DNA from: an uncultured Bacteroidota bacterium
Lineage (GTDB): Bacteria > Bacteroidota > Bacteroidia > Bacteroidales > WCHB1-69
Direction: 5' to 3'
Length of the DNA: 64,000 nucleotides
Assembly: GCA_902786595.1 (NCBI GenBank)
Contig: CADADB010000011.1
Span: 25,462 to 89,461 of the forward strand
Shown here: positions 352 through 63,734 of the stretch, in pieces
Layout: each line of letters starts with the position of its first letter
Position numbering within the stretch: the stretch's first letter is position 1
Program-made: the position numbers and the translations under genes
The notes under the pieces: generated by a model
Told to the model about the DNA's origin: nothing
Seen by the model: only the letters and a program-made list of their open reading frames with translations
Databases searched by the model: none

Positions 352-352
352 A

Positions 353-394
353 ACTATGACTATGACTATAACTATAACTTAAACTTAGACTTAA
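353..394. repeat. Hexamer tandem array downstream of uvrB
   Basis: Seven 6-nt units follow the uvrB stop almost directly: ACTATG, ACTATG, ACTATA, ACTATA, ACTTAA, ACTTAG, ACTTAA. This is the only array here with a clear 6-nt period. Confidence 0.8.
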
Positions 395-435
395 ACTGTT
401 ACCTATAATACTTATTATCACCGTTTATCACCGAA

Positions 436-540
436 GTCTTACGTCTTACGTCCCACGTCTTACGTCTTACGTCCCACGTCTTACGTCTTACGTCCCACGT
501 CTTACGTCTTACGTCTCACGTCCCACGTCTCACGTCTCAT
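436..540. repeat. Heptamer array, 15 units of GTCTTAC/GTCCCAC
   Basis: The stretch divides exactly into fifteen 7-nt units (105 nt). The first nine are a 21-nt super-unit (GTCTTAC, GTCTTAC, GTCCCAC) repeated three times; the rest are GTCTTAC, GTCTTAC, GTCTCAC, GTCCCAC, GTCTCAC and GTCTCAT. Together with the preceding hexamer array it fills most of the uvrB-acyltransferase gap. No open frame or clear hairpin is seen. Confidence 0.9.
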
Positions 541-588
541 GTCTGAAATCTCAAAAAAGTTAAAAAGTATTAATTCCCAAAAAAATCG

Positions 589-596
589 TATATTTG
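589..596 (+). promoter_or_regulatory. -7 promoter box TATATTTG of the acyltransferase operon
   Basis: The box matches the Bacteroides sigma-ABfr -7 consensus TAnnTTTG and is followed by CGGCC. Only 10 nt separate it from the ATG at 607, so the transcript leader should be very short. Confidence 0.7.
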
Positions 597-606
597 CGGC
601 CTGATT

Positions 607-1752: not shown

Positions 1753-1768
1753 TATTTTTTAACGCTAT

Positions 1769-2779
1769 ATGGATGAGATTCAACCCCCGTCGCAACCGAA
1801 AATTTTAATCATCAGACTGAGCTCCATCGGCGACATTGTGCTGACCACGCCGGTAATCAGAGCGGTGAACGAGCAACTGCCTGAGGCAGAGGTTCATTTC
1901 TTGGTCAGAAAAGATTTAGTTTCTGTGGTTGAGAACAACCCTCACATTCACAAGGTGCATATTTATGACCCTGAAAATGTAAGTCAAACCATTGATGAGT
2001 TACGTCAAGAGCAATTCACCGTGGTCATTGATTTGCAGAAAACGTTGCGTTCCCGCAAAGTGGTTCGCCGCTTGAAAGTGCCTTCCTATACATTCCATAA
2101 GTATAATCTTTCGAAGTGGATTTGTTATCGTCTCAAGATGAACGGTTTGCCGGAATCGCATATCGTGGAGCGGTACTTTGAAGCGGTCAAGGAATTGGAT
2201 GTTCATAATGACCACAAAGGTTTGGAATTTTATATTCCTGAAAATCAAGGATTTGAAGAAGATGATCTGCCGATGATGTTTGACGACGGATTCGTGGCCA
2301 TCGTGTTGGCGGCGCAGCATTTCACGAAACGTATTCCGGTGAGCAAAGTGGTGGAAATCGGCAGCATTCTGCACAAGCCCATCATGCTGTTGGGTGGCAA
2401 AGACGTGTTTGAGGAGGGTGAGCAGGTGGTGGCTCAGCTCGGCGAGCGCGCTACCAACGGCTGTGGCAAATACACGCTGTACCAGTCGGCGGCCATTCTG
2501 CAACATGCTGATTGTGTGATTACTGGCGACACAGGCCTGATGCATATATCGGCGGCGTTACACAAGCCCACGGCGGCCATTTTCGGCTCCACCATCCCCG
2601 AATATGGTTACTATCCCTATATGCCCGGTGAACGCGAAAAGTTCCGTAATTTCGAGGTCTGTCCGCTCAACTGCCGCCCGTGCTCCAAATTCGGTAGCTC
2701 CAGCTGCCGGCGGAAACATTTCAAGTGTATGAAGAACATTTCAGCCACGGAGGTGGCGGAGTGGGTGAACCGGTTTTAA
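1769..2779 (+). CDS. Glycosyltransferase family 9, ADP-heptose:LPS heptosyltransferase-like
   Basis: 336 residues. The N-terminus (KILIIRLSSIGDIVLTTPV) is the GT9 hallmark, with the conserved serine-isoleucine-glycine-aspartate loop. The C-terminal half carries TGDTGLMHISAAL and AIFGST, the nucleotide-sugar binding region. GT9 enzymes transfer heptose or related sugars to lipid A-core on the cytoplasmic side of the inner membrane. It is the second gene of a two-gene unit with the acyltransferase, which supports a role in LPS or lipid assembly. Heptosyltransferase I versus II, or another GT9 sugar, cannot be separated here. The gene ends in a short palindromic AT-rich hairpin shared with convergent trmO. 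Confidence 0.85.
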   Translation: MDEIQPPSQPKILIIRLSSIGDIVLTTPVIRAVNEQLPEAEVHFLVRKDLVSVVENNPHIHKVHIYDPENVSQTIDELRQEQFTVVIDLQKTLRSRKVVRRLKVPSYTFHKYNLSKWICYRLKMNGLPESHIVERYFEAVKELDVHNDHKGLEFYIPENQGFEEDDLPMMFDDGFVAIVLAAQHFTKRIPVSKVVEIGSILHKPIMLLGGKDVFEEGEQVVAQLGERATNGCGKYTLYQSAAILQHADCVITGDTGLMHISAALHKPTAAIFGSTIPEYGYYPYMPGEREKFRNFEVCPLNCRPCSKFGSSSCRRKHFKCMKNISATEVAEWVNRF

Positions 2780-2805
2780 TGCATTATGCATAATTCATAA
2801 TGCAT
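2779..2805. terminator. AT-rich hairpin between convergent genes
   Basis: ATGCATTATG and CATAATGCAT form a perfect 10-bp stem with a 7-nt loop, beginning at the glycosyltransferase stop codon and facing trmO. It could end transcription from both sides, but it lacks a clean T-tract and also looks like a two-unit CATAATK repeat. Confidence 0.45.
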
Positions 2806-2822
2806 AATTAGGAATAGAACTT

Positions 2823-4360: not shown

Positions 4361-4389
4361 GTAGAGACGTACCGTTGGCGCGTCTCTAC
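4361..4389. repeat. Dispersed palindrome, GTAGAGACG family (copy 1)
   Basis: Nine-bp arms GTAGAGACG and CGTCTCTAC enclose an 11-nt centre (TACCGTTGGCG). The centre is less symmetrical than in other copies. It lies between the orphan gene and the sugar transporter stop. Confidence 0.8.
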
Positions 4390-7052: not shown

Positions 7053-7157
7053 TTTAACCCTTAACCCTTAACCTTTAACCCTTAACCTTTAACCCTTAAC
7101 CCTTAACCCTTAACCCTTGAACCTTAACCCTTAACCCTTGAACCTTAACCCTTAAAC
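7053..7157. repeat. Heptamer array, 15 units of CTTAACC
   Basis: Fifteen 7-nt units, mainly CTTAACC with TTTAACC, CTTGAAC and CTTAAAC variants (105 nt). It ends exactly at the base before the GH3 stop codon (7158), so it lies directly downstream of that gene. The word resembles a telomere repeat, but nothing else supports a chromosome end. Confidence 0.9.
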
Positions 7158-9287: not shown

Positions 9288-9291
9288 AATA

Positions 9292-16943: not shown

Positions 16944-16984
16944 CATTTTTTTTAGGCAACAGGCAACAATCAATAGGCAATAGA

Positions 16985-22272: not shown

Positions 22273-25239
22273 ATGCCGGAAGAAAAAATCAAAACGCCGC
22301 GATTAGGACAAGCGGCCAAAGAGTTTAACGTGTCGAATGACAGGATTATCGCCATACTGGCCAAGAACGGGCTTGAGATCAACGCCCCGACCCCGAACTC
22401 CAAGTTGTCTGTGGAGATGTACCAGTGTTTGCAGAAAGAACTGGCCAAGGACAAATTGGTGAAGGAGAAGTCTGAGCAGATATTACCTTCCAAGAACAAG
22501 AAGGAAGAATCAAAACCCGATTCCGCCGAAAAAGGACGTGAAGAGGAACAGGACGGTCATCACATCATTATCCATACGACCAAACTTGTGGATGCTCCAG
22601 CAGTTGAAGCTCCAGAGGTTCATGGTCCTGAGGTGAAAATCATCGGTTCTGTTCCACCGGAAACTTTGGCGAAATCTTCCAAGAAGGCCGCTTCCGGCAC
22701 TGCAAAGGAAGAGTCTTCCGAAAAGAAACAAGTCGAAAACGAAGAAGCCCCTCTTATGGATACTCCGGCAAATCCAAAAGAGGAGCCCGCTTTTGAAACC
22801 CAGGAGGAAATCTCTGAAAATCCTGTTCAGGAGTCTGCTGAAACTCCGCAACAAGACGAAAAAACCGAACATATTGAGACAGTTGCGCATATTTCAGGCC
22901 CGGCAATCATCGGAACAATGGATCTGGAGTCTTTGAAACCCAAGAAGAAAACTGCTTCAAAAGAGAAGAAGGTCCAGAAAAAAGAAAAACCGGCAAAAGC
23001 TCAAACCAAAGAGAAAGATTCAAAACCAGAAGAAGAAGTTCAACAGGAACCTACTGTTGCCCCCGCTCCGGTTCAAGAAGCTCCGGAACACATCAAAACG
23101 GTAGTGAATCAGCTTAAAGGACCGAAAATTCTCGGTACCATTGACTTATCCCTACTCCAGAACAATAAGGAAAACGGTAAGAAAGAGGAACATCGGAATG
23201 GCGACAACCAGGATAAGAAGAAAAAGAAAAGAAAACGCGTGGCTAAACCCGTGAAGGCCGCCAATATTCCGAATGGTAAGGACGATAAAGAGAAGAGACA
23301 GAAACAGGAGCCCGAAAAAGTGGAGATTTCTGCGGAAGACATCCATCGTCGTATCAAAGAGACCAAAATGCGTCTTGAAAGCAATACGAAAAAGACTTCC
23401 ACAGCGGCTAAAAGAAGAAAGGAGAAACGTCAGCTTATTCACGAACGTATTGAGGAACAAGAACTTCAAGCAATCGAAGATCAGAAGACCTTGCGCGTGA
23501 CAGAGTTCATCACCGCCAACGAGTTGGCTACTTTGATGAACGTGGACGTCACCAAGATTATCTCCACCTGTATGAGTATCGGTCTCTTCGTTTCCATCAA
23601 CCAGCGACTTGATGCAGAAAATATTGCAATGTTGGCAGAGGAGTTCGGGTTTAATGTCGAATTCATTGATGCCGAAGAAGAGGACAATATGCACAATTCA
23701 GCTGATGTTGATGCTGAAGAGGATCTGCAACCGCGCAACCCAATCATTACCGTTATGGGTCACGTTGACCATGGTAAGACCTCTTTGCTGGACTACATCC
23801 GCAAGACCAATGTTATTGCCGGTGAGGCAGGTGGTATCACCCAGCACATCGGTGCATACGAAGTGAGTCTGCCCGACGGACGTAAGATCACTTTCCTCGA
23901 TACCCCTGGTCACGAGGCGTTTACCGCTATGCGTGCCCGTGGTGCCAAGATCACGGACTTGTGTATCATCGTGGTCGCCGCTGACGACGCCGTGATGCCG
24001 CAGACGGTCGAGGCAATCAACCACGCTCAGGCCGCCGGTGTCCCGATGGTGTTCGCCATCACCAAGATCGACAAACCCAACGCCAATCCCGACAAAATCC
24101 GTGAGGAACTGGCCAACATGAATATCCTTGTGGAAGAGTGGGGCGGCAAGTACCAATGCCAGGAAATCGATGCCAAACATGGTACAAATGTTCAAGAATT
24201 GTTGGAAAAAGTACTGTTAGAAGCTGATTTGCTTGACTTGAAAGCCAATCCGAACCGTCCCGGCGTAGGTGCAGTCATTGAGTCCGCTTTGGACAAAGGT
24301 CGTGGCTATGTCGCGAAAGTGCTCGTGCAGAATGGCACACTCTCCGTGGGTGACCCGATTCTTGCAGGAAGCTGCTTCGGCAAGGTGAAAGCCATGTTCA
24401 ACGAACGTAATCAGCCCGTGAAATCCGCCGGTCCTGCGCAGCCCGTGTTGTTGTTAGGTCTCAACGGTGCCCCACAGGCCGGTGATACGTTCAAGGTTTG
24501 CGAGTCTGAGCAGGAAGCCCGTGGTATCGCCACGAAACGCGCTCGCCTCGCCCGTGAAATGGGTCTGCGCACGCAAAAGCATGTCACGCTCGAAGAAATC
24601 GGACGCCGTATCGCTATCGGCGACTTCAAGGAACTCAACATTATCGTCAAGGGTGATGTCGATGGTTCTGTGGAAGCTTTGGCTGGTGAGTTGCTGAAAC
24701 TCAGCACTGAACAAGTCCAAGTCAACGTCATCCACAAATCCGTGGGTCAGGTGACCGAAACCGATGTGATGCTGGCCACTGCATCCAATGCCCTTATCGT
24801 GGCCTTCCAGGTGCGTCCGTCAGCCAACGCCCGCAAGATGGCCGAAGCCGAACAGATTGACATCCGTACATACTCTATTATATATACCGCTATTAATGAG
24901 ATTAAAGATGCTATCGCGGGTATGCATTCACCGGAGATTCGCGAAAAAGTGGTTTGCAACATCGAGATTCGCGAAGTGTTCCACATCTCCAAGGTTGGCA
25001 ACGTGGCCGGTTGTATTGTCCTCGACGGAAAATTGCAGCGTAGCACCAAGATCCGCCTCATCCGCGACGGTATCGTTATTTATACTGGCAAACTCGGCTC
25101 CCTGCGTCGTTTCAAAGACGATGTCAAGGAGGTGGTTGCCGGTCAGGACTGCGGTCTGAACATCGATGGTTGCAACGATATCAAGGTCGGCGACATCATC
25201 GAAGGTTACGAGGAATTCGAGGTGGCATACGGGAAATAG
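22273..25239 (+). CDS. infB: Translation initiation factor IF-2
   Basis: 988 residues. An IF2_N domain opens the protein ([19 protein letters not shown]), followed by about 350 residues of lysine/glutamate-rich, low-complexity linker and a second IF2_N-like unit ([20 protein letters not shown]). The GTPase domain has [11 protein letters not shown] (G1), the DTPGHEAF G3 loop and TKID (G4); domains II-IV end in [15 protein letters not shown]-2 places initiator tRNA on the 30S subunit and drives subunit joining. The acidic/basic linker is long but normal for Bacteroidota. It ends at a terminator that coincides with a member of the palindrome family. Confidence 0.97.
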
Positions 25240-25270
25240 ACGATGATGCGATGAGACGATGAGACGATGA
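25240..25270. repeat. CGATGAGA-type array at the infB stop
   Basis: CGATGAT, GCGATGAG, ACGATGAG and ACGATGA (7-8 nt units) start directly after the infB stop. Its reverse complement (CTCATCG) matches the arrays at 53003 and 57909. Confidence 0.75.
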
Positions 25271-27392: not shown

Positions 27393-27740
27393 ATGGATTT
27401 CAAGAGCACACAAACCATCTACCGGCAGATTGAGCATTGGGTCTATGAGCAGATCCTGTCGGGCAATTGGAAGCCGGGCGAGCGGGCCAAGTCCGTGCGC
27501 GAGTTAGCCGTCGCCTTCGAGGTGAACCCCAACACCGTCATGCGCTCCTACGAACGCCTCCAGAACCAGGAGATCATCACCAACAAACGCGGCATCGGCT
27601 TCTTCGTCAACGAGGATGCCCCCGAGAAAATCCACGCCATCCGGAAGAAGGAATTCATGGAGGAGGAGGTGCCGGAGTTTCTGAAGAATATGCGGTTGCT
27701 GGGAATCACGATGGAGGAAATCATGGCAGTTAGTAATTAG
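27393..27740 (+). CDS. GntR-family transcriptional regulator, YtrA subfamily
   Basis: 115 residues: an N-terminal winged helix (IYRQIEHWVYEQILSGNWKPGER, then SVRELAVAFEVNPNTVMRSYERLQ and EIITNKRGIGFFV) and a short dimerising C-terminal tail, the layout of YtrA regulators with no large ligand domain. These repress the ABC operons in which they are encoded. The gene is last in the operon, unlike Bacillus where it is first. The stop codon lies inside a TAGTAAT heptamer array, so the last codons derive from repeat sequence. Confidence 0.93.
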   Translation: MDFKSTQTIYRQIEHWVYEQILSGNWKPGERAKSVRELAVAFEVNPNTVMRSYERLQNQEIITNKRGIGFFVNEDAPEKIHAIRKKEFMEEEVPEFLKNMRLLGITMEEIMAVSN

Positions 27741-27765
27741 TAGTTAGTAATTAGTAGTTAGTAGT
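27731..27765. repeat. Heptamer array TAGTAAT/TAGTAGT across the GntR stop
   Basis: Five 7-nt units: TAGTAAT, TAGTAGT, TAGTAAT, TAGTAGT, TAGTAGT. The second unit supplies the stop codon of the regulator gene. Confidence 0.85.
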
Positions 27766-27796
27766 TGAGTCGCGATTTAGCTGCTAACTACTAACT
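27756..27796 (+). terminator. Hairpin after the ABC operon
   Basis: AGTTAGTAGTT and AACTACTAACT form an 11-bp perfect stem with a 19-nt loop, using part of the heptamer array. There is no good T-tract, so termination is uncertain. Confidence 0.4.
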
Positions 27797-30212: not shown

Positions 30213-30267
30213 GTGTTAAGACTTAGGACTTAAGACTTGAGATCTAAGACGTTTGGGGGTGATAGTT

Positions 30268-30312
30268 GCCAATGGCTAATAGCCAAAAGCTAACAGCTAA
30301 AGGCCAACAGCC
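30268..30312. repeat. GGCTATTAGC/GGCTGTTGGC array across the miaA stop
   Basis: On the minus strand this reads as TTGGCTGTTGGCCTTTAGC and continues with TTTGGCTATTAGCC, the same word family as at 49596 and 61709. It contains the miaA stop codon (30297-30299) and encodes the last residues of the protein. Confidence 0.75.
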
Positions 30313-31244
30313 AAATCAATCCCGTCTTCCTGCAAATACCCGTAAATCTGTCGGAATTTCTCATCTTCTGGCAAGTCTGCATCCACCCAGCGGATATTGA
30401 ATCCCATGCGTTCCATGCGACGGAACCAGGTCATCTGTCGTTTGGAGAACTGGTGGATGGCCGTGTTGAGTTGCGAGACCATATCGCCGTAGTGCAGTTC
30501 GCCTATAAGATATTGGGTGATAAACTTATACTCCAAACCGTAGCGGATAAGCCGTTCGGGCGGGATGCCTTCGTCAAGGAGGGCCTTCACCTCATCGACC
30601 ATACCTTCCTGCAGACGTGCCTGCAGGCGTCGTGTGATGCGCTCGCGGATGTGGTCGCGTTCGCCGCACATTCCGATGATGGCGGAGTCCAGCGGTCTTA
30701 CGCGCTCGCTCAATTCGGGGTGCTTGGCGTAGTAGTCCTCAATTTCAATGGCGCGGATCAGGCGCGGTCGTTCGGACGTGTCGGTGTCGTTGTGCAGGGA
30801 TTTGTAGGCGGCGAGCATCTCCGTAAGTTCCTCATCCGTGTAAGTTTCCAACTCGCGACGCAGTTCGGGGTTTTCGGGTACGGGGAAGAGCCGGTAGCCG
30901 CGCAGTACCGCTTCCACGTACATGCCGCTTCCACCGCACAGCACGATGCGATGGCCTCGGGCGCGGATGCTCTCCATCGCTTCGTAAGCCGCCTGCTGGT
31001 AACGGAACACGTTGTATTCCACGCCGGGTTCTTCAATGTCAATGAGATGATAGGGGATGGGATTTCCATTGTATTGATACTCTGACAAATCCTTTCCGGA
31101 ACCGATGTCCATACGGCGGAACACCTGACGGGAGTCAGCGCTCACAATTTCGCCGCCCAACTCGGCCGCAATGCGCACCGCCACACCGGTCTTGCCCGTG
31201 GCGGTTGGGCCTAATACGGTGATTATCGGTTCTTTAGCAATCAT
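30297..31244 (-). CDS. miaA: tRNA dimethylallyltransferase
   Basis: 315 residues. P-loop LGPTATGKTGVAVRIA, DSRQVFRRMDIGSGKDL (catalytic Asp/Arg region), PYHLIDIEEPGVEYNV, and GGSGMYVEAVL are all typical. The enzyme prenylates A37 of tRNAs that read UNN codons. It is the last gene of a tight run (rlmB, phosphoesterase, miaA) in which each pair overlaps by 4 nt. The C-terminal residues lie in repeat sequence. Confidence 0.96.
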   Translation of the reverse strand: MIAKEPIITVLGPTATGKTGVAVRIAAELGGEIVSADSRQVFRRMDIGSGKDLSEYQYNGNPIPYHLIDIEEPGVEYNVFRYQQAAYEAMESIRARGHRIVLCGGSGMYVEAVLRGYRLFPVPENPELRRELETYTDEELTEMLAAYKSLHNDTDTSERPRLIRAIEIEDYYAKHPELSERVRPLDSAIIGMCGERDHIRERITRRLQARLQEGMVDEVKALLDEGIPPERLIRYGLEYKFITQYLIGELHYGDMVSQLNTAIHQFSKRQMTWFRRMERMGFNIRWVDADLPEDEKFRQIYGYLQEDGIDLAVGL

Positions 31245-32493: not shown

Positions 32494-32632
32494 TTTTTAA
32501 TGGTTATAGGTTATTGGTTATTGAAGCAGGTTATAGGTTATAGGTTATTGAAACGGGTTGTTGTAAAATATTACTGATTGCTGTTTCTTAATAGTAAACT
32601 ATCAACCATTAACCATTAAACAACAGGCATCA

Positions 32633-32660
32633 ATAACCTATAACCTATAACCCATAACCA
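32633..32660. repeat. Heptamer array ATAACCT, abutting the PAS gene stop
   Basis: Four units: ATAACCT, ATAACCT, ATAACCC, ATAACCA, ending at the base next to the PAS stop codon (32661). The opposite side of the gap (32499-32550) carries the reverse complement words (GGTTATAGGTTATTG), so the whole gap is an imperfect inverted repeat. The same four-unit type recurs at 48721. Confidence 0.85.
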
Positions 32661-38949: not shown

Positions 38950-38957
38950 AGTATCAT

Positions 38958-38978
38958 TTGAACTTTGAACCTTAAGCC
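38958..38978. repeat. Heptamer array TTGAACT across the sufS stop
   Basis: Three units (TTGAACT, TTGAACC, TTAAGCC) fill the SDR-sufS gap and include the sufS stop codon. A related stretch (CCTTAAACTTTGAACTT) occurs near 49632. Confidence 0.6.
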
Positions 38979-43894: not shown

Positions 43895-43922
43895 GATTTG
43901 CGATTTGCGATTTGCGATTTGC
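43895..43922. repeat. Heptamer array GATTTGC, 4 units
   Basis: Four exact GATTTGC units just upstream of folP, continuing into GAAAATCGCAAACCGCAAATC, which is the inverted word. It may form a hairpin with 43928-43944. Confidence 0.85.
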
Positions 43923-43952
43923 GAAAATCGCAAACCGCAAATCGTGAAATAG

Positions 43953-45271: not shown

Positions 45272-45339
45272 CTTATTTTTTCGTTCCTTCGGAAAAATTT
45301 TTTCATAAAAATTCTTAATAGTGAAATGTTCATAAATAC

Positions 45340-45360
45340 GGTTTACGGTTTGCGGTTTAC
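45340..45360. repeat. Heptamer array GGTTTAC, 3 units
   Basis: GGTTTAC, GGTTTGC, GGTTTAC in the gap between the T9SS and rho promoters; this array is not at a stop codon. Confidence 0.65.
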
Positions 45361-45421
45361 GATGTTTGATAATTCGCTAACCGAAAACGAAAAAAATGTT
45401 TGGAGATGTCAATAATTATTG

Positions 45422-47458: not shown

Positions 47459-48724
47459 ATGAAAAAGGCATTTTTTTCTATAGCCGTACTTTTGTGCCTC
47501 GCATTGTCGTTGCGGGCGGACATTTATACGCCTTTTCTTACCGAAGAGCAATATCTAAAACAACTTTGGGACACTATTGTTGATCGCTATGATGTTGAGG
47601 GACTGGAGTTTGTGGCTAACGACATGTCCCAAAAGTTGAATGGTGCGATGTTGGTGGCCGTGCGTGACACGGTGCTGGTGGAACATGCCTACGGGGAGCT
47701 CCGTCTGACGGGAGAGCCCCCACGTTGCAACCCGGCGGAAGACAATCAGATTACTGAAACCACGCTGTTCGATTTGGCTTCTATTTCCAAACAATTTACG
47801 GCGGTAGCTGTGTTGCAGCTCTGTGCGCAAGGAAAAATCAGTCTTGAAGACACTATTACAGAATATTTTCCGAATCTTCCTTATAGCGGTGTGACTATCA
47901 AGCATCTGTTGTCGCATACTACAGGTATTCCAGAGTATTTCAAGTTCAAATATCCTGTATATGGATCTTCGGCGTTTGTTGATAATCAACAGCTTTTGCG
48001 TGTATTAGAAAAGCAGAAATACGCCAAAACGTTTCCTACAGGGTCGAAATTCGAATATGTGAACACCAATTATGCGATTTTGGCCGCGTTGGTGGCAAAA
48101 GTGTCCGGCAAATCGTTTGAAGAGTATGTTCACGAGAACATATTCAAGCCAGCCGGGATGAAAAACACCTGCTTTTTCACGGAATTGGTAGGCATTGATG
48201 CCAAACACGGGAAAAGGTATGCCGATGTGGATCCGAAAGCGGAAGATGTGGCTGTACAACCGTTGCCATCGGATATTCCGATTGCCCGAGGGCACCGGAA
48301 GGTGGCAGTCGTTGCCCGATATGACCGTTTGAACGGGGTGCTTGGCGACAAAGGGATCTATTCCAACGTAGAGGATATGCTTTGCTGGGCCAATGCCCTG
48401 TTTATCGATTATAAAATTCTGCCGAAAGAGTGGGTGGACCTCGCCTCGCAGCGCGAAAACCAGCTGAAAGACGGCACACTGCCTAAAAACATTTACGGTT
48501 TCGGCTACCGCATTGAGGAGAGTCCCGCACACGGCAAACTCGTCTATCACGGCGGCCTTTGGAACGGCTTCCAGAATCTTTTCCTCTACCGCCCCTCCGA
48601 CAACGTGATCATCATCTTTCTCAGCAACCTCTATAATAGAGCCCATGTCGGTCGTAGCGACCAAATGCTTAACATTCTCGATGGCATACAGGAGGAAGCA
48701 ACGGAAGAGGAAGAGCTTCAATAA
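47459..48724 (+). CDS. Serine hydrolase, class C beta-lactamase/penicillin-binding-protein fold
   Basis: 421 residues from ATG 47459 with a signal peptide (FFSIAVLLCLALSLRAD). SISK (SxxK) in FDLASISKQFTAVAVLQL, YVNTNYAIL (YxN) and VYHGGLWNGF (HxG, the third element) define the active site; LLSHTTGIPEY is typical of the family. Such periplasmic enzymes are esterases, D-aminopeptidases or cell-wall carboxypeptidases; the substrate cannot be told. A GTG 15 nt earlier is a weaker start. The stop codon lies in an ATAACCC heptamer array. Confidence 0.88.
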   Translation: MKKAFFSIAVLLCLALSLRADIYTPFLTEEQYLKQLWDTIVDRYDVEGLEFVANDMSQKLNGAMLVAVRDTVLVEHAYGELRLTGEPPRCNPAEDNQITETTLFDLASISKQFTAVAVLQLCAQGKISLEDTITEYFPNLPYSGVTIKHLLSHTTGIPEYFKFKYPVYGSSAFVDNQQLLRVLEKQKYAKTFPTGSKFEYVNTNYAILAALVAKVSGKSFEEYVHENIFKPAGMKNTCFFTELVGIDAKHGKRYADVDPKAEDVAVQPLPSDIPIARGHRKVAVVARYDRLNGVLGDKGIYSNVEDMLCWANALFIDYKILPKEWVDLASQRENQLKDGTLPKNIYGFGYRIEESPAHGKLVYHGGLWNGFQNLFLYRPSDNVIIIFLSNLYNRAHVGRSDQMLNILDGIQEEATEEEELQ

Positions 48725-48748
48725 CCCATAACCTATAACCCATAACCA
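48721..48748. repeat. Heptamer array ATAACCC across the serine hydrolase stop
   Basis: Four units: ATAACCC, ATAACCT, ATAACCC, ATAACCA. The first contains the hydrolase stop codon, and the array ends 7 nt before the next ATG. The last three units equal those at 32640-32660. Confidence 0.85.
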
Positions 48749-48755: not shown

Positions 48756-49595
48756 ATGAACCATTACCCCGCTAACTATCATACCCATAGTCTTTACTGT
48801 GACGGCAAAAGCACATTGGAAGAGCATGTGCGTGAGGCCGAGAAATGCGGACTCCTGCAGCTCGGTTTCTCTTCGCATTCCTCGGTGCCGTTTGAGAACA
48901 ATTTCGCCATTTCGGAAGAAAGGATTCCGGAATATATAAAAGAAATTGAGCAACTGCAACAGAAAACAAACATCAAGTTGCTGAAATCGTTGGAATGCGA
49001 ATTTGTCCCCGGGATTACCAAGGATTTTGACGTTTGGCACACGACTTATAATCTCGACTATGTCATCGGTGGCGTGCATCTCGTGCGGCCGCCTCATGGC
49101 GACGGACTTTGGTTCATTGACGGTTCCAAGCAAGAGATTTACGATAATGGTTTGCGGGATTTGTTCGACAACGACATCAAGGCGGCGGTGACTGCTTTTT
49201 GGGAGCAGACATTCGAGATGCTGGAAACGCAGCATTTGGATATCATCGCCCATTTCGACAAAATCAAAATGCACAATCGCGATCGCTTTTTCACGGAAGA
49301 TGAAAGCTGGTATAAAGTCTTGGCTGACAAGGCGATACAGTTGATTAAACGACACGATGTTATCATTGAGGTGAATACCCGTGGATTATACAAAAAGCGT
49401 TGCGATCACTTTTATCCCTCCACAGAACTGCTGATGAAAGCGCGCAAAGCCGATATTCCCGTGATAGTGAGCAGTGATGCGCACAAGGCGGAGGAACTGA
49501 CGCTGTTTGTGCCTGAGGCATTGGCGGAATTGCAACGCTGCGGCTTCGATCACACCGCACGGTTCGATGTCGAAAAAGGTAGGTTTGTGTATTAG
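48756..49595 (+). CDS. PHP-family phosphatase, histidinol-phosphatase (HisJ/HisK)-like
   Basis: 279 residues. PHP metal motifs: NYHTHSLYCDGKSTLEEHV, FSSHSSVPF, SLECEFVPG, GGVHLV, IAHFDKIK and VSSDAHKAEEL. These give the trinuclear His/Asp/Glu site of histidinol-phosphate phosphatase, which makes histidinol in histidine synthesis. No other his gene is in the window, so a different phosphoester is possible. It follows the serine hydrolase across a heptamer array. Confidence 0.85.
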   Translation: MNHYPANYHTHSLYCDGKSTLEEHVREAEKCGLLQLGFSSHSSVPFENNFAISEERIPEYIKEIEQLQQKTNIKLLKSLECEFVPGITKDFDVWHTTYNLDYVIGGVHLVRPPHGDGLWFIDGSKQEIYDNGLRDLFDNDIKAAVTAFWEQTFEMLETQHLDIIAHFDKIKMHNRDRFFTEDESWYKVLADKAIQLIKRHDVIIEVNTRGLYKKRCDHFYPSTELLMKARKADIPVIVSSDAHKAEELTLFVPEALAELQRCGFDHTARFDVEKGRFVY

Positions 49596-49630
49596 CTGTT
49601 GGCTATTGGCTTTTAGCTATTGGCTATTAA
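49596..49630. repeat. Heptamer array CTATTGG, 5 units, at the PHP gene stop
   Basis: CTGTTGG, CTATTGG, CTTTTAG, CTATTGG, CTATTAA begin at the base after the stop codon. Same word family as 61709 and 30268. Confidence 0.85.
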
Positions 49631-53002: not shown

Positions 53003-53047
53003 TTCATCGTTTTTCATCGCTTCTTCATCGCCTCATCGTGTCATCGT
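53003..53047. repeat. CTCATCG-type array
   Basis: TTCATCGTTTTTCATCGCT then TCTTCATCGCCTCATCGTG and TCATCG form degenerate 7-9 nt units next to the stop of the gene at 53047. Same word as at 57909 and, inverted, 25240. Confidence 0.65.
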
Positions 53048-53401: not shown

Positions 53402-53426
53402 AAAATCATTGGCTTTGGTTAAAAGA

Positions 53427-53852: not shown

Positions 53853-53858
53853 AATGAA

Positions 53859-53865
53859 CTCCTTT
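53859..53865 (-). promoter_or_regulatory. Strong Shine-Dalgarno AAAGGAG before hsp20
   Basis: AAAGGAG on the minus strand with 6 nt to the ATG at 53852. Most genes here lack such a site, so hsp20 may be translated by a different, efficient initiation mode during stress. No CIRCE element is seen. Confidence 0.8.
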
Positions 53866-53985
53866 CTTTTATTGTTAGACTTTTTAATTTTTCATTTCTG
53901 TCCGCCTCCGCTTTCGCATCGGCGACGCTACCTATAATGCAAACCGCGTGCCAGCCCTTTTTTCGTGCCAAAATTCAGTAAATGT

Positions 53986-53998
53986 GGACAAATTGTCC
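53986..53998. promoter_or_regulatory. GGACAA-A-TTGTCC palindrome upstream of hsp20
   Basis: A perfect 13-nt palindrome in the GH89-hsp20 gap, 134 nt upstream of the hsp20 ATG. It is a candidate operator; it might also be part of termination for the GH89 gene region. Confidence 0.35.
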
Positions 53999-54043
53999 AT
54001 TTCTGGTGACAAGATGGCGGGTTTTGTGTCAAAATTTCCTTTG

Positions 54044-56293: not shown

Positions 56294-56318
56294 ATTGTCT
56301 CATTTTAGAATGATACGG

Positions 56319-56326
56319 CAAAAGTA
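56319..56326 (-). promoter_or_regulatory. -7 box TACTTTTG of the GH89 gene
   Basis: TACTTTTGCCGTA on the minus strand, 25 nt before the ATG. Confidence 0.7.
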
Positions 56327-56344
56327 TAATTTTTCTGAAAAAAG

Positions 56345-56394
56345 TTGTCCCAGTTGTCGTCGGAAAGGAAGACAACCAGGACAACTGGGGACAA
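56345..56394 (-). terminator. Inverted repeat downstream of rlmD
   Basis: TTGTCCCAGTTGTC and GACAACTGGGGACAA pair with one bulge around a 21-nt loop; on the minus strand it is followed by ACTTTTTTC. It is a probable terminator for rlmD. Confidence 0.55.
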
Positions 56395-56412
56395 TTAAAA
56401 GGATTGTCGTCT

Positions 56413-57816
56413 CTATCGCAGTTTCAGCAGCACCACGTTCTCGACGTGCTGCGTGTGCGGGAACATATCCACGGGCTGCACCTTCTCTACGCGGTACTTC
56501 GGGTCGAGCAAGGTGAGGTCGCGGGCTTGCGTGGCTGGGTTGCAGCTCACATAGACGATGCGCGGCACCTCCAATTTCAGCAGCTGTTCGATGACATTCG
56601 GGTGCATGCCGGCGCGCGGCGGATCGGAGATGATCACGTCCGGCTTTCCGTGCTGCGCGATGAACTGGTCGGTGAAGATCTTCGCCATGTCGCCCACCAC
56701 GAACTCCGTGTTCGTGATGTTGTTCTGTGCAGAGTTGATCTTCGCGTCCTCCACGGCAGTATCCACGTACTCGATACCGACCACCCGCTTGGCTTGGTGT
56801 GCCACGAAATTGGCGATGGTGCCCGTGCCGGTGAACAGGTCATAAACAACCTCATCTTTTTGTATATCAGCAAATTCGCGCACCACCTTGTAGAGATTGT
56901 AGGCCTGTTCGCTGTTGGTTTGGTAGAACGACTTCGGTCCGACCTTGAACTGCAAGTTCTCCATCTTTTCGGTGATGTAGTCCTGACCGGCATAGAGGTG
57001 GAACGGCAGGTCGAAGATGGCATCATTGAGCTTGGTGTTGATGACGAAAGTCAGCGAGGTGATTTCGGGGAATCGCTCCATAAGGGCGGCAAGCATATCT
57101 TTCACCTCCTGGTTGTATTTGGTGACGATGAGCACCACCATCAGGTCGCCAGTGGAGGCGGTGCGGATGATGAGGTTGCGCAACAGCCCTTTCTGCTGGC
57201 GCGGGTCGTAGAAGTCGAGGTTGTGCTCGATGGCGTACTGCTTGCAGAAGAGACGGATGTCGTTGCTCGGGGCCGCCTGCAGCCAGCAGTGCTGGATATC
57301 CAAGATCTTATCGAACATGCCGGGCACGTGGAATCCGAGACAGCGGTTTTCGAAGAATTCGCCCTGCTCCTGCCGTTTCATGTCGTCGTAGGTCAGCCAC
57401 AGCATCGTGGAAAAGGTGTATTCCAGCTTGTTGCGGTAGTAGTAGATTTTCTCCGACCCGAGAATGGGCATCAGCGGCGGGAACTCGAACTTGCCGAGGT
57501 GCTTGAAGTTGTCCTCAACTTGTTTCTGCTTGAATTCTAACTGTTTCTCGTATGTCAGCATCTGCCATTTGCATCCGCCGCAGTGACCGAAGTGTCCGCA
57601 CGGCGGCACCACCCGGTCGGGCGACGGCTGCTTGATAGCCAGCAGGTTGCACTCCGCATAGCCGCGTTTGCGTTTATAGACTTCCACATCGACGATGTCG
57701 CCAGGCACCGCGTACGGCACAAACACCGTCAGCCCATCGACCTTGCCGACGGCTTTTCCCTCCGCCCCTGCGGAGAGGATTTCCAGATTTTCTATGTTAT
57801 ATCGTTTGAAGCTCAT
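56413..57816 (-). CDS. rlmD: 23S rRNA (uracil-5-)-methyltransferase RlmD/RumA family
   Basis: 467 residues. An N-terminal TRAM domain (LEILSAGAEGKAVGKVDGLTVFVP), the iron-sulfur Cys set (CGHFGHCGGCKWQ, with a later Cys in ILDIQHCW), and the SAM-dependent fold: FYQTNSEQAYNLY, VYDLFTGTGTIANFVA, DPPRAGMHP and the catalytic Cys in VYVSCNPATQARDL. It makes m5U in 23S rRNA, or the paralogous site (m5U747); the exact position is not resolved. Confidence 0.93.
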   Translation of the reverse strand: MSFKRYNIENLEILSAGAEGKAVGKVDGLTVFVPYAVPGDIVDVEVYKRKRGYAECNLLAIKQPSPDRVVPPCGHFGHCGGCKWQMLTYEKQLEFKQKQVEDNFKHLGKFEFPPLMPILGSEKIYYYRNKLEYTFSTMLWLTYDDMKRQEQGEFFENRCLGFHVPGMFDKILDIQHCWLQAAPSNDIRLFCKQYAIEHNLDFYDPRQQKGLLRNLIIRTASTGDLMVVLIVTKYNQEVKDMLAALMERFPEITSLTFVINTKLNDAIFDLPFHLYAGQDYITEKMENLQFKVGPKSFYQTNSEQAYNLYKVVREFADIQKDEVVYDLFTGTGTIANFVAHQAKRVVGIEYVDTAVEDAKINSAQNNITNTEFVVGDMAKIFTDQFIAQHGKPDVIISDPPRAGMHPNVIEQLLKLEVPRIVYVSCNPATQARDLTLLDPKYRVEKVQPVDMFPHTQHVENVVLLKLR

Positions 57817-57851
57817 AATCTTTGGTTCTTCGTTATGATCCCAGGGCTACC

Positions 57852-57877
57852 GAGCTCTTGCCCCTACGGGGCTGCTC
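57852..57877. repeat. GC-rich hairpin between nadD and rlmD
   Basis: GCCCC-TAC-GGGGC nested inside GAGC/GCTC arms, with the surrounding CCCAGGGCTACC making a compact element unlike its AT-rich flanks. It may be another small dispersed repeat; only one copy is seen in this window. Confidence 0.5.
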
Positions 57878-57908
57878 AAGGAATAATTCTTATAATTGGT
57901 CTTGCCAG

Positions 57909-57978
57909 CTAATTCATCATCTCATCATCTTATCATCGTTTCATCGCCTCATCGTCTCATCGCTTCATCGCCTCATCG
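57909..57978. repeat. CTCATCG-type array, about 9 units
   Basis: Degenerate 7-9 nt units (ATCATCT, CATCATCTT, ATCATCGTTT, CATCGCCT, CATCGTCT, CATCGCTT, CATCGCCT, CATCGTT) run up to about 6 nt from the nadD stop. Matches the words at 53003 and, inverted, 25240. Confidence 0.8.
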
Positions 57979-57984
57979 TTATAT

Positions 57985-58560
57985 TTATCGGTAAAATCCC
58001 TCCTGGTCCACATACTGGAACACCTTCTCAGGCATCATATATCGTACGGACTTGCCGTTTTTGATGTTGTCGCGGATCATCGTGGAGGAGAGGGCCATCA
58101 GGGGCGCATCCACGAGGTGTACATGCGGGTGCGTGCGGAAGTCGCCGCCGTCGTAACCGGGACGCGGATAGACGTAGAGGTGGTAGTTTTCCAGAATGTA
58201 CTCGTAGTTGAACCATTTCGTGAAGGTCTGCAGGTTGTCTTCGCCCATGATGAGGCAGAACTCGCGCTGCGGGTATTGTTCGCGCAGCACCTGTAGCGTG
58301 TAACTGGTGTAGGAGGGTTTCGGGAGCGAGAACTCGATGTCGCAGGCCCGGAAACGCAGGTCGTCGCCGATAGCGAGGTTTACGAGGTGCAGACGCTGGC
58401 GGTCATCCAAAAGCGAGGCCTTCTTCTTCAGCGGGTTCTGCGGTGACACCACAAACCAAAGTTCCTGCAAATCAGAATGTTCCAGCAGATATTCGGCAAT
58501 AATCAAATGCCCGACGTGTATCGGGTTGAATGAGCCGAAATAGAGTCCTGTTTTCTTCAT
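57985..58560 (-). CDS. nadD: Nicotinate-nucleotide adenylyltransferase
   Basis: 191 residues from ATG 58560. LYFGSFNPIHVGHLIIAEYLL (nucleotidyltransferase HxGH), VVSPQNPLKKKASLLDDRQRLHLV, IMGEDNLQTFTKWFNYEYIL and SSTMIRDNIKNGKSVRYMMPEKV (the SxTxxR motif) identify NadD. It adenylates nicotinate mononucleotide in NAD synthesis. A longer frame to 58632 crosses its own promoter box and the dnaG start, and is rejected. Divergent from dnaG with 71 nt between the start codons. Confidence 0.95.
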   Translation of the reverse strand: MKKTGLYFGSFNPIHVGHLIIAEYLLEHSDLQELWFVVSPQNPLKKKASLLDDRQRLHLVNLAIGDDLRFRACDIEFSLPKPSYTSYTLQVLREQYPQREFCLIMGEDNLQTFTKWFNYEYILENYHLYVYPRPGYDGGDFRTHPHVHLVDAPLMALSSTMIRDNIKNGKSVRYMMPEKVFQYVDQEGFYR

Positions 58561-60701: not shown

Positions 60702-60756
60702 CCTATGAATATTCATCACTCATCATACATCATACATCATTCATAATTAAAAATAC

Positions 60757-60790: not shown

Positions 60791-61708
60791 ATGAAACTAA
60801 CCGCTGAAAAACGTAAAGAAATCATCAAAACCTACGCCCTGATTATCTTGGGCACGTTCATCATGTCCATCGGGTTTGTGGTGTTCATTTCGCCGCTGAA
60901 GCTGGCGCCAGGCGGTGTTTATGGTATTGCCATCATTCTGCACCACGTGTTCAACTTTCCCATCGGTCTTTCGGGCATCTGCCTCGATTTGCCGCTGCTG
61001 CTTATCGGAACGTTGTGGCTCGGTCCGAAGTTCGGGGCGAAAACGCTCGTGGGAGTGATCACACTGCCGGCTTTCATCTCGCTATGGGAGAAGGTCTATG
61101 GCTACGCACCGTTGATTGCTTTACCTGGTGATCCCATGACTCCCGATCCTTCCGCCACCTTTATTCTCGCATTGTGCGGTGGTGTGATTATCGGTATCGG
61201 ACTAGGTTTGATTTTCAGGACCCGTGCCACATCCGGCGGCACCGATATCATCGCTATGATCCTCGGCAAATACATCAAACATATCCCGTTAGGCACCCTG
61301 CTCATTTGCGTGGACTCCACCATTGTGCTCATCGCTTTGGCTGCTTTCAAAGACTGGACTATTCCGCTCTATTCCTGGTTGGTGATATATGTGACGGGAA
61401 TTGTCATGGACAAGGTCATCGCTGGCTTCCACGGGAACAAGGCGGTACTCATCATTTCCGACAAATACGAAGAAATACGGCAACGCATCTTTGATGAGCT
61501 GGACCGCGGTGGCACATACCTCAACGGTGAGGGTATGTACAATCACGATGAAAAGAAGATCATCTTCACCTCCATCTCGCGCAAACAGCTGCCCGTGCTC
61601 ATCCACTTCGTCCACGAAATCGATGACAAAGCATTCGTCACCATATTAGATGCTTCCGAAACCTTGGGTTACGGATTCAACTCGTTGCGTGAAAAAGCGT
61701 TGAACTAA
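60791..61708 (+). CDS. YitT-family membrane protein (DUF161/DUF2179)
   Basis: 305 residues. Five to six hydrophobic helices (TYALIILGTFIMSIGFVVFI, GGVYGIAIILHHVF, LILALCGGVIIGIGLGLIF, LGTLLICVDSTIVLIALAAF, YSWLVIYVTGIVMD) with GLIFRTRATSGGTDIIAMIL typical of the family. A soluble C-terminal DUF2179 domain follows (GFHGNKAVLIISDKYEEIRQ; GRGTTYLNG-like RGGTYLNGEGMY; KKIIFTSISRKQLP). It lies in the inner membrane; transport function is proposed for the family but unproven. The stop is followed at once by a CTATTGG array. Confidence 0.92.
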   Translation: MKLTAEKRKEIIKTYALIILGTFIMSIGFVVFISPLKLAPGGVYGIAIILHHVFNFPIGLSGICLDLPLLLIGTLWLGPKFGAKTLVGVITLPAFISLWEKVYGYAPLIALPGDPMTPDPSATFILALCGGVIIGIGLGLIFRTRATSGGTDIIAMILGKYIKHIPLGTLLICVDSTIVLIALAAFKDWTIPLYSWLVIYVTGIVMDKVIAGFHGNKAVLIISDKYEEIRQRIFDELDRGGTYLNGEGMYNHDEKKIIFTSISRKQLPVLIHFVHEIDDKAFVTILDASETLGYGFNSLREKALN

Positions 61709-61800
61709 CTATTGGCTATTGGCTATTGGCTGTTGGCTATTGGCATATTGGCTGAAAGCCAATTAAAGCCAAAAGCCAACAGCTAAATGCTAAAAGCTAT
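61709..61800. repeat. Heptamer array CTATTGG with inverted half
   Basis: CTATTGG three times, CTGTTGG, CTATTGG and CATATTGG run from the base after the yitT stop; then the inverted words (GCCAATTAAAGCC, AAAGCCAACAGC) run to the stop of the convergent S41 peptidase gene at 61797. The convergent gap is thus one imperfect inverted repeat. Confidence 0.85.
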
Positions 61801-63560
61801 TTTCCAGAGTCAACCTTATACTTCTTAAAGATCTTCTTGTTATTCATAATCTCCACAGCTTGCTGGAAAGTGTCGTCGCTTTCGAGGAAGACACGGTAGG
61901 CATCGCCGTAGCCGTACAGCCCGCGGGCAATTTCAAAGCGCAGATATTCTTTGATGAACTCGGCGGCATGTTCTTCGTTGCGAAGATGTTGCAGCTCCGC
62001 GTAGGTCTTGTTGAGGTAATTGGTGAACATTGTGTCAAAAGACTGCTGGTCAAAATCTTCCGTGCTCTTATAGAGGGAATCCAGTTTCTCTTTGTTCTCC
62101 TTGAGGAAGGCGTTGGCGAAGTCGCTAAAGACAAAGGACGCTTTGTCGCTCACGCCCTCTTCCTTGGCAAAAGCCATAAATTCCTTGTAGAAATCATCGG
62201 AGATCTTGTAATTCTTTTGGAAATCCTCAAATTTCGGGTATTGTTTCAATAACGCGTCGCGATTGTTTTCCAGATAATCGACGGAGAAGCTGCCAAACAC
62301 GCCTTTTCTGGCGATTTCATTGTAAAGGGTGGAGTATTTGGTGGTATCCAGCGGGATGAAGATGTCGGGCATGATACCACCACCGCCATAAACCACACGG
62401 CCCTTTGGCGTTTTATATTTCAGTGAATCCGGGAATTTGATGTTTTCCGCGGTGTAATATTCGCCATTGTTGGCGCGGGTCTGTAGATCCTTGAAGTAAG
62501 CGTCCAAACCGTCGTCGTAGGGTTTCTGGATGCAACGGCCAGTGGGGGTATAGTAGTGGGAGATAGTAAGACGCACTTCGGATTGGTCAATAAGTCGCAA
62601 TGGTTTCTGTACCAATCCTTTACCGAAAGTTCTGCGCCCGACGATCAGTCCGCGGTCCCAATCTTGGATGCATCCAGAGGTGATTTCAGAAGCGGAGGCG
62701 GAGTTTTCGTCAACAAGTACAATCAGTTTGCCCTCTTCAAAAAGGCCCTCTTCGGAAGAGAAGTATTTCTCGCCGGTTTTGCGGAAATTGTCGGTATAGA
62801 CAATCATGCGTTTGCCGGAGATGAACTGGTCGCAGATTTCGAAGGCCACGTTGAGGTAGCCGCCGCCGTTGCCGCGCAGGTCGAGAATCAAGTTCTTCAT
62901 GCCCTGTTCTTTCAAGCTGCGGATGGCCTTTTTGAGTTCAGTGGTGGAAGTGGCGGCGAACCGTTCAAGTTTGATGTAGCCGGTGGCGGAGTCGGCCATG
63001 AAGCTGACATTGATGCTGTACATCGGGATGGCGCCGCGGGTGATGACAAAGTCGATGGGCTCCTTTTTGCGGCCGCGCACCACGGTGACTTTCACCTTGG
63101 AGCCCTTTTTGCCACGCAGGTGTTTGCGCACCCAGTCGTTGCTGATGTCCTTGCCCACGGCCACGGTGTCATCGACTTTGATGATCTTGTCGCCGGCCAT
63201 GAGTCCAACTTTCTCCGAAGGACCGTCGATGATGACTTCCATCACGTTGATGGTGTCTTTGATGAGCTGGAAAGTCACGCCGATGCCATCGAAGGAACCC
63301 TGCAGCGGCTCGGTCATGGCAGCCACGTCCTTGGACGGAATATAGGCCGTATGTGGATCCAACTCTTTGAGCATCTCGTTGATGGACTTATCGACTAAAG
63401 GGTCGAAATCCACCGAATCCACATACATGGAGTTGATGGCGTTGAGTAGCTGGTCCATCTTGGTTTTGTTCTGCTGGTAATGTTTGTTCGGGGACTGCGC
63501 GAAAAGGGTAGTTCCAATGGCTAACATGCTGAAAACAGCGACGATGACTTTATTTTTCAT
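61797..63560 (-). CDS. S41-family C-terminal processing peptidase (CtpA/Prc-like)
   Basis: 587 residues with a signal peptide (VIVAVFSMLAIGTTLFAQ). An N-terminal helical part (YVDSVDFDPLVDKSINEMLKELDPHTAY), a PDZ domain (GSFDGIGVTFQLIKDTINVM; GLMAGDKIIKVDDTVAVG), then the protease core: LILDLRGNGGGYLNVA, DENSASASEITSGCIQD with the catalytic Ser, and GRRTFGKGLVQ with the Lys. Acts in the periplasm trimming protein C-termini or muropeptidases. A ~180-residue C-terminal helical extension follows. Confidence 0.93.
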   Translation of the reverse strand: MKNKVIVAVFSMLAIGTTLFAQSPNKHYQQNKTKMDQLLNAINSMYVDSVDFDPLVDKSINEMLKELDPHTAYIPSKDVAAMTEPLQGSFDGIGVTFQLIKDTINVMEVIIDGPSEKVGLMAGDKIIKVDDTVAVGKDISNDWVRKHLRGKKGSKVKVTVVRGRKKEPIDFVITRGAIPMYSINVSFMADSATGYIKLERFAATSTTELKKAIRSLKEQGMKNLILDLRGNGGGYLNVAFEICDQFISGKRMIVYTDNFRKTGEKYFSSEEGLFEEGKLIVLVDENSASASEITSGCIQDWDRGLIVGRRTFGKGLVQKPLRLIDQSEVRLTISHYYTPTGRCIQKPYDDGLDAYFKDLQTRANNGEYYTAENIKFPDSLKYKTPKGRVVYGGGGIMPDIFIPLDTTKYSTLYNEIARKGVFGSFSVDYLENNRDALLKQYPKFEDFQKNYKISDDFYKEFMAFAKEEGVSDKASFVFSDFANAFLKENKEKLDSLYKSTEDFDQQSFDTMFTNYLNKTYAELQHLRNEEHAAEFIKEYLRFEIARGLYGYGDAYRVFLESDDTFQQAVEIMNNKKIFKKYKVDSGK

Positions 63561-63599
63561 TGGGTTATTATTGGTTTTATTCTATTCTGAAAAAGACGG

Positions 63600-63607
63600 C
63601 AAAAATA
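63600..63607 (-). promoter_or_regulatory. -7 box TATTTTTG of the S41 peptidase gene
   Basis: TATTTTTGCCGTC on the minus strand, 39 nt before the ATG. Confidence 0.7.
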
Positions 63608-63713
63608 CGGTTTTTTTTGGATTTTTTATTCGCTTTTTTAGACGTATTTTTGACATAAACTTAGACAAATAACATAGACTTTGGAATTCATCGAAAAATT
63701 AATCACTAATTAC

Positions 63714-63734
63714 TATTGCCTATTGCCTATTGCC
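63714..63734. repeat. Heptamer array TATTGCC, 3 units
   Basis: Three exact TATTGCC units upstream of the last promoter. The inverted word (AGGCAATAG, GGCAACA) occurs at 16954-16983 upstream of the MORN gene. Confidence 0.75.

Follow-up and report, generated by a model that had tools for sequence, protein, structure and literature searches.

Heptamer tandem arrays of many words are anchored at gene edges with an outward strand polarity in a Bacteroidales genome

The window, the whole 64-kb stretch of DNA analysed here, belongs to the 2.84-Mb, 40-contig genome (G000) of an uncultured Bacteroidota bacterium, whose nearest named relatives, judged from a single peptidase (96-98% identity), are Bacteroidales metagenome-assembled genomes labelled goat omasum, RUG083 and sheep rumen. 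Ten window proteins were scanned, with matches to beta-xylosidase (GH3-like), IF-2, Rho, SufS and an S41 peptidase. Between the genes lie tandem arrays that share a 7-nt period but not a word, and a sequence-only reading of the window had proposed that they are anchored at stop codons. We find that stop-codon anchoring is one case of a gene-edge anchoring with strand polarity: the G-rich, C-poor strand of an array mostly reads 5'→3' away from the adjoining gene edge, whatever the direction of the gene, an orientation that we call outward.

Using Tandem Repeats Finder (TRF) with a score cut-off of at least 40, together with our own gene caller, which leaves gene starts approximate, we counted 14 intergenic arrays of period 7, 14 or 21 in the window. 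Nine of the 14 touch or contain a stop codon (2777, 7054, 27728, 30275, 32633, 48721, 49590, 61709 and 61765). The TAATGCA array at 2777..2808 begins with the stop TAA of gene 1769-2779, and is scored inward by an excess of C over G of one; the relative G030 has the same last residues there, followed by TAG and ATAGTTAGTAGTTAG. On the minus strand, 14.6 copies of TTAACCC/GGGTTAA (7054..7155) start 2 nt past the stop of the GH3-like gene 7158-9302(-), where G030 and G031 have TAG with GTTCAAAGG-type words. The AGTTAGT array (27728..27766, plus strand) contains the stop of gene 27393-27740 and is followed by an inverted CTAACTACTAACT, and the GCTAAAA/AGCCAAA array (30275..30315, minus) contains the stop of gene 30297-31244(-), whose last residues are not the same in G030 and G032. 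A cassette of GGTTATN units (32633..32659, minus) begins with the stop TAA of gene 32661-32999(-), at whose end G030 and G032 have TAG plus a palindrome and no cassette. A reversed GGTTATN cassette (CTTCAATAACC...CATTA; 48721..48747, minus) gives gene 47510-48724 its stop and last residues, is two units shorter in G030, and is an exception in breaking the outward rule at its stop. TRGCTNT arrays contain the stop TAG of gene 48756-49595 (49590..49628, plus) and the TAG of the S41 peptidase gene 61797-63560(-) (61765..61799, minus); the latter faces a CTATTGG array (61709..61753, plus) immediately behind the stop of gene 60791-61708. Close congeners without TRGCTNT at the S41 peptidase stop have either TAA (L074-L080, L084, L100) or TAG (L081-L083), and L082 has a different repeat there.

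Arrays with mainly 8-nt units, noted as CTCATCG in the sequence-only reading, likewise reach a stop. These are a AGACGATG array starting within the stop of infB (22273-25239; array 25238..25270, plus), where G030-G032 keep the same TAG with different sequence behind it; a CTCATCG/TCATCGTC array of 8- to 11-nt units (53003..53047, minus) reaching the stop of gene 53047-53316(-); and a CATCATCG array (57915..57982, minus) ending 2 nt short of the stop of gene 57985-58560(-). A 6-nt AACTAT/AACTTA array found by TRF and in the sequence (352..397, plus) adjoins the stop of an open reading frame at 1-351; by eye it is C-rich on the top strand, contrary to the outward rule. Behind the sufS stop (38972-40174, minus), a TTTGAAC tract of about two units (38956..38973, minus) is visible in the sequence and longer in G030. 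The sequence-only reading had listed it as an array at 38958, and the tract is there, though TRF does not call it.

TRF lists arrays at nearly all of the positions given in that reading, and inspection of the sequences confirmed the many words. Stop anchoring holds for most of these sites and fails at three. The GTCTTAC array at 436..544, with a 21-nt super-period, lies 84 nt from the upstream stop; it is C-rich on top, and hence points outward from the downstream promoter or start (gene 607/616), with a -7-like box at 589. Four GATTTGC units (43895..43924, plus), followed by an inverted GCAAATC copy, point outward from the start of gene 43079-43891(-), 3 nt away; G032 has the same word at this site, while G030, G031, G035 and G036 have other words or palindromes. 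The TACGGTT array (45337..45361) lies in the spacer of divergent genes. Other arrays on the start side are a GGTTATN cassette (TTAATGGTTAT...TTGAAG, twice; 32502..32559, plus), outward from the start of gene 31744-32493(-), an ATTCATC array (60711..60748, minus) 42 nt ahead of the start of gene 60791, with a -7-like box, by eye, just past it, and a weak TAGGCAA array (16953..16983, score 34) upstream of a minus-strand gene whose start is called at 16870/16918. A TTAAGAC array (30216..30250, plus) begins right behind what by eye is a terminator-like hairpin, and a CTATTGC array (63713..63736) lies close to the window end.

To place these arrays in their genomic context, we used a discovery sample of 853,891 bp of G000, window included, and a hold-out of 387 kb of unseen contigs from the same genome. 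The polarity was found in the discovery sample, and four tests were fixed in writing before the hold-out sequence was fetched. For placement and polarity, arrays of period 7, 14, 21 and 28 were pooled; 162 of 179 discovery arrays could be assigned to spacers between called genes (17 left out), and 10 of 119 hold-out arrays lacked a spacer assignment and were likewise left out. Polarity counts drop arrays with equal G and C (4/162 and 1/109). One 21-nt repeat region, AAAAGTGGACAAGCGGTTCGA (contig C1, 253629-254421), was scored as intergenic and resembles, by eye, a missed coding gene; it is counted in the discovery sample, as its GG spacer.

At the same score cut-off of at least 40, the discovery sample contains 144 intergenic arrays of period 7, compared with a mean of 0.2 in five dinucleotide shuffles of the same spacers and with 10 in coding sequence. 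Other intergenic periods are far less frequent (13 at 14, 6 at 21, 12 at 8 and 6 at 6). Counting an array as in contact with a stop when it lies at most 3 nt away, and taking random placement inside its own spacer as the null, we obtained 73 stop contacts against 30.9±4.0 expected (maximum 43 in 500 placements) in the discovery sample, and 45 against 17.6±3.3 (maximum 29 in 1000) in the hold-out. Start contacts numbered 13 against 23.2 expected, which is below expectation, and 11 against 13.2. Among stop edges of spacers of at least 40 nt, 118/726 bear an array. Averaged over 66 stop-touching arrays, identity at a lag of 7 nt ranges over 0.14-0.45 ahead of the stop, is about 0.65 within the stop codon itself and reaches 0.73-0.91 in the 20 nt past it; the periodicity thus begins to climb at the stop codon's first base. 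A tandem-repeat scan against shuffled spacers, which the sequence-only reading had proposed as a check, gave the 7-nt excess, and random placement gave the enrichment at stops; that reading's description of one period with differing words extends past the window, to about nine word families.

Outward polarity prevails at both kinds of gene edge. For arrays whose nearest edge is a stop within 3 nt, outward and inward orientations number 59:9 in the discovery sample and 40:4 in the hold-out; where the nearest edge is a start at 4-60 nt, the counts are 34:4 and 19:3. Spacers with two oppositely oriented arrays are ordered G-then-C on the top strand, so that the arrays face each other, in 17 cases and C-then-G in none, and 10:0 in the hold-out. 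The other multi-array spacers are GGC (2), GCC, GCGC, GG and CC (1 each) in the discovery sample, and GCC, CC, CCC and GG (1 each) in the hold-out. Seven congeneric sets, some orthologous to the window, give 30:4 outward at stops and 11:0 in facing order; two of them, G043 and G048, use mostly other words. Period-8 arrays follow the rule as well (25:1 at stops), and the rule was not seen in eleven period-6 arrays. Because starts and divergent spacers show the same polarity, anchoring at stops is a special case of the edge rule. Among 27 tRNAs, arrays are present within 80 nt of only 2, pointing outward at one and inward at the other. In array-free spacer DNA the two halves have even G:C, with 2185:2109 in the last 30 nt, and polarity is weak or absent in this ordinary spacer DNA.

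The rule does not depend on one word. In word families defined by hand after inspection of the data, outward:inward counts at stops are 24:3 for TRGCTNT, 18:1 for GACKTNA, 12:0 for GAATTAA, 11:4 for GGTTATN, 9:0 for GGATAAT, 7:3 for TTAAGGG, 4:1 for GATTTGC, 3:0 for GTAGTTA and 2:0 for GTGATTA. A founder effect is unlikely, because all nine lean outward.

The two ends of an array are unlike. The 5' side of the G-rich strand abuts the stop in 66/83 discovery and 45/62 hold-out cases, the 3' side in 10/81 and 4/51. On the start side, 5' ends abut the start or a -7-like box (TAnnTTTG) in 36/75 and 18/46 cases, and 3' ends in 7/77 and 2/57. The start itself accounts for 17/75 and 14/46 of these 5' ends, and the box for 19/75 and 4/46, compared with 1/77 and 1/57 of the 3' ends. 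The box lies between array and start in 36/75, about the background share (192/386), most often at a spacing of 5-6 nt (10/36).

Word families recur at unrelated genes. One is the GGTTATN cassette, whose ends are conserved, (T)TTAAT(GGTTATN)3-4 then TGAAG, with some exceptions at either end; it forms 32 clusters in 854 kb. Its core pattern (at most one mismatch) matches at 92 genomic places, against none for a reversed control, and of 60 genomes searched the 19 that contain the core all belong to this genus. Within the GGTTATN, TRGCTNT and GACKTNA families, some positions vary and others are fixed at unrelated loci; the N of GGTTATN is G, A or T and rarely C. At orthologous gene ends, species bear other words or a palindrome, and unit number varies between relatives. 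For example, six genomes share the end point, in GRFVY, of the protein of gene 48756-49595, but what follows is TRGCTNT words in four (a short remnant in G032), TAG and TAGTTAG in G035, and TAA with unrelated sequence in G036. In 150 comparisons of window genes with five relatives (presence cut-off 0.6 periodicity), the stop codon differed in 16 of 22 where an array was gained or lost and in 23 of 116 without an array on either side (Fisher 2.5e-6, an optimistic value because comparisons share genes). A few genes owe their last residues and stop to an array: 47510-48724 with its orthologs in G035 and G036, 30297-31244, and the G031 ortholog of 57985-58560. The earlier suggestion of a process copying words at gene ends is supported by this recurrence at unrelated genes, by the dispersed cassette and by the word swaps at orthologous sites.

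What could install tracts of different words in one orientation? The reading we favour, though we hold it only tentatively, is that the arrays may be traces of a process at the DNA level that keeps installing heptamer tracts, outward from functional gene edges. Where a spacer holds a break or a stalled end, this end would be resected as far as the last essential base; repair synthesis would then lengthen the 3' end with array units copied from other places, through template switching or through microhomology, for which the stop-like TAA/TAG/TGA trinucleotides found in many words may serve; and the two ends would be joined. Ends that had lost coding or promoter sequence would be purged by selection, and over many rounds the inner boundary would ratchet up to the stop codon or the promoter, with the outer end left free. 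Extension of a 3' end outward from the last selected base would explain the polarity set by the edge, the abutting 5' end and the free 3' end; copying from existing arrays would explain the recurring words, and selection the sharp inner boundary. If this is right, the question shifts from gene regulation to the rebuilding of bacterial spacers, the arrays become a readable record of spacer turnover, repeats can overwrite stop codons and C-terminal tails, and the origin of heptamer repeats becomes testable.

Several observations weigh against this reading. We infer the mechanism and its individual events, none of which was caught in action. Where the nearest edge is a stop 21-60 nt off, inward arrays prevail in the discovery sample (16 against 6), although we take these to belong mostly to the opposite gene's edge. 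The GCGC spacer holds an inner back-to-back pair, and spacers with one orientation exist (GG and CC once each; GG, CC and CCC once each in the hold-out). Taken alone, G032 has 0:2 at stops; ten arrays of G200, from another family, show no polarity (1:3 at stops, 2:8 overall); and a tenth word family, GTTCAAA, is a single inward array. The first 30 nt of non-array spacer are slightly richer in G than C (2252:1900), with no mirror in the last 30 nt. On the start side, 39/75 and 28/46 of the 5' ends abut neither start nor box. The median gap between facing arrays is 13.5 nt (22 pairs), and the two mostly differ in word (5/22 match at 6/7 or better, against 2.5 in shuffles), which one double-ended event does not predict. 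The gain and loss comparisons reuse genes over the five relatives, and the 0.6 cut-off scores some weak arrays as absent; moreover, C-terminal length was unchanged in 16 of the 22, compared with 102 of the 116 that lack arrays. The replacement of spacers appears to have been partial, the array-free length being 93 nt with and 108 nt without arrays in tandem spacers (66 and 90 convergent, 215 and 231.5 divergent). Finally, no enzyme was found among the candidates searched (PF00078 reverse transcriptase, Ku and Y1 transposase; other types were not searched). PF00078, with one match in G000, is absent from several cassette-rich congeners (G039, G013 and G045); Ku is absent from 60 of 60 genomes; and Y1 transposase occurs in 53 of 60 relatives, whether or not they have the cassette. 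As drivers, all three were rejected, because their presence does not track cassette counts.

The main rival is selection for insulators of the Rho type. The inward C-rich, G-poor strand would act like a Rho utilization (rut) site, ending transcripts that enter genes, such as antisense RNA at a stop or read-through at a promoter, and selection would keep arrays of the right polarity near edges. That strand is 28% C and 8% G and has roughly one YC in every 7 nt, a likeness to rut sites drawn from what is generally known of Rho sites; the polarity fits entering transcripts at stops, at starts and in divergent spacers; and a Rho gene lies in the window itself. The halves of non-array spacers do not show this composition, however, and Rho loading should require neither an array that starts at the stop codon nor a change of stop codon. 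Insulator selection would thus explain the polarity but not the replacement of stop codons, and we consider it unlikely, if worth taking seriously. Rather less likely, in our estimate, is that the arrays are non-autonomous mobile cassettes, spread by a transposase (e.g. Y1/RAYT) that prefers gene edges, and supplying the stop. The conserved ends of the GGTTATN cassette at 92 places, the genes that take their last residues and stop from an array and the three Y1 matches in G000 all suit such cassettes, and since array-free length is only slightly shorter in spacers with arrays, ready-made cassettes may have been inserted. By eye, however, Y1 counts do not follow cassette counts across the genus, and random insertion gives no polarity. 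Nor would supplied stops explain the polarity of TRGCTNT and TTAAGGG, which have stops on both strands, or the polarity at starts; for the same reasons, and because C-terminal length stayed unchanged in most array changes, supply of stops alone was rejected as the explanation.

Two further explanations are both very unlikely in our view. Facing arrays could be the arms of an RNA hairpin that ends transcription or shields 3' ends, and some pairs are indeed complementary (61709/61765, 43895 with its inverted copy, and C1 180227), as is a good stretch in 7 of 90 testable single-array regions against 0 in shuffles. On the other hand, 107 discovery regions hold only one called array, and most called pairs differ in word and are not complementary, for which a hairpin function was rejected. 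The termination role proposed in the sequence-only reading fared no better. Terminator-like hairpins are equally common with and without arrays in tandem (24/141 and 52/298) and convergent spacers (14/24 and 32/49), and rarer with arrays in divergent ones (1/20 against 24/83), and the outward rule holds at edges that lack a stop. A function in which arrays replace hairpins as terminators was rejected for this lack of association after genes. Of 15 outward arrays that lie 51-80 nt past a stop, 8 are seen by eye to start at a terminator T-run or close to one. An automatic count of such abutment (5' side 5/83 and 5/62) is no more than suggestive, since its loose detector rings as often on the 3' side (12/81 and 9/51) and in uniform controls (6.8 and 6.5). 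Of that reading's overall interpretation, then, the anchoring, the period and the word copying are supported and termination is not. The other explanation would have plain slippage act anywhere in the spacers at random, while drift and deletion trim spacer that is not in use. Most genomes are reported to have heptamers as their commonest long simple repeats (Mrazek 2007, cited in PMC4679880 and PMC4692102), and unit number varies between relatives. Slippage predicts neither the same word families at unrelated genes nor the polarity, facing order and stop abutment, and the hold-out already disfavours it.

Dispersed short spacer repeats, often in facing pairs, are also formed by repetitive extragenic palindromic (REP)/BIME elements with RAYT transposases. 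Those are imperfect palindromes, whereas the array units here are direct 7-nt tandem repeats. Cyanobacterial short tandemly repeated repetitive (STRR) heptamers have several heptamer words in one genome and tandem 7-nt, mostly intergenic units, as here; after a limited literature search we are aware of no account of stop-codon junctions or of strand polarity in them. Three Calothrix heptamers are mentioned in PMC4692102.

That paper describes GGGNATC and GGGGA(C/T)T heptamers in Xanthomonas and Nostoc spacers and discusses quadruplexes (Rehm et al. 2015; PMC4692102). Most are found on the coding strand at most 50 bp from a stop, or on the non-coding strand ahead of a start; in some cases a stop codon is overlapped, and length and sequence vary between relatives. 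The same orientation is found here, the G-rich strand being the coding strand after stops and the non-coding strand before starts. What is reported there for one type of G-rich word holds here for about nine unrelated families, most without GGG in each unit. The GGGNATC-type G-tract is absent from the main words TRGCTNT, GACKTNA, GAATTAA and GGATAAT; GGG is present in TTAAGGG, and in GGTTATN only if N is G. Further differences from that description are that the 5' end abuts the stop codon here, and that word and stop codon change together between orthologous sites. MacGregor (2015; PMC4679880) reports TAACTGA direct repeats in Beggiatoaceae, cyanobacteria and Bacteroidetes, with 147 of 170 sets toward a start codon, most commonly 1 nt upstream, and 14 overlapping the end of an upstream open reading frame. 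Heptamers at gene edges in a fixed orientation are common to both systems, but that account concerns one word, mostly on the start side and with a proposed translational role, in contrast to many words, mostly on the stop side, here. Three exact TAACTGA units occur nowhere in G000 and in 5 of 395 genomes of a class sample. A limited literature search recognised no paper on oriented multi-word arrays in Bacteroidales. Our results extend the orientation rule to many other words, to both gene ends and to a third phylum, and add the swapping of word and stop together. If our reading is right, the rule in Xanthomonas and Nostoc is not about quadruplexes, as it holds for many words and at both gene ends.

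A more specific proposal, which we regard as improbable, is that the genus has a telomere-healing-like activity, by which chromosome ends exposed in spacers would gain C-poor heptamer tracts at their 3' end, the ends so capped being joined afterwards. Several words would then be available, gene edges would record past breaks, and the same activity would underlie the oriented heptamers of Xanthomonas, Nostoc and Beggiatoaceae. Telomerase-type addition differs from what is seen here in that PF00078, the one reverse transcriptase family searched, does not track the cassette (being absent, as noted, from several cassette-rich congeners).

A second dispersed family consists of palindromes. Those of the form GTAGAGACG...CGTCTCTAC have 56 perfect-arm copies in 1.24 Mb, 53 of them with a 10-nt middle, and those of the form GTAGGGGCG...CGCCCCTAC have 11 copies, all with a 10-nt middle. 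Copies lie in the window at 4361-4389, 10812-10839, 30083-30110, 43055-43082 and 51889-51916, and at orthologous sites in G030-G036, and palindromes occupy several congener gene-end sites where the window has an array. Their leading GTAG presumably recalls REP elements; the Y1 gene at C1:270141 has no such palindrome within about 1.3 kb.

Length differences between congeners also fall at array sites, at 2779-2881 and 57811-57990 relative to G030, and at 27707-27870 relative to G031 and G032, with sizes of about 2.6, 3.6, 0.39 and 0.19 kb. As a counter-case, a difference of 2.95 kb at 53346-56414 relative to G031 is not at an array site. The few cases hint that arrays mark rearrangement points.

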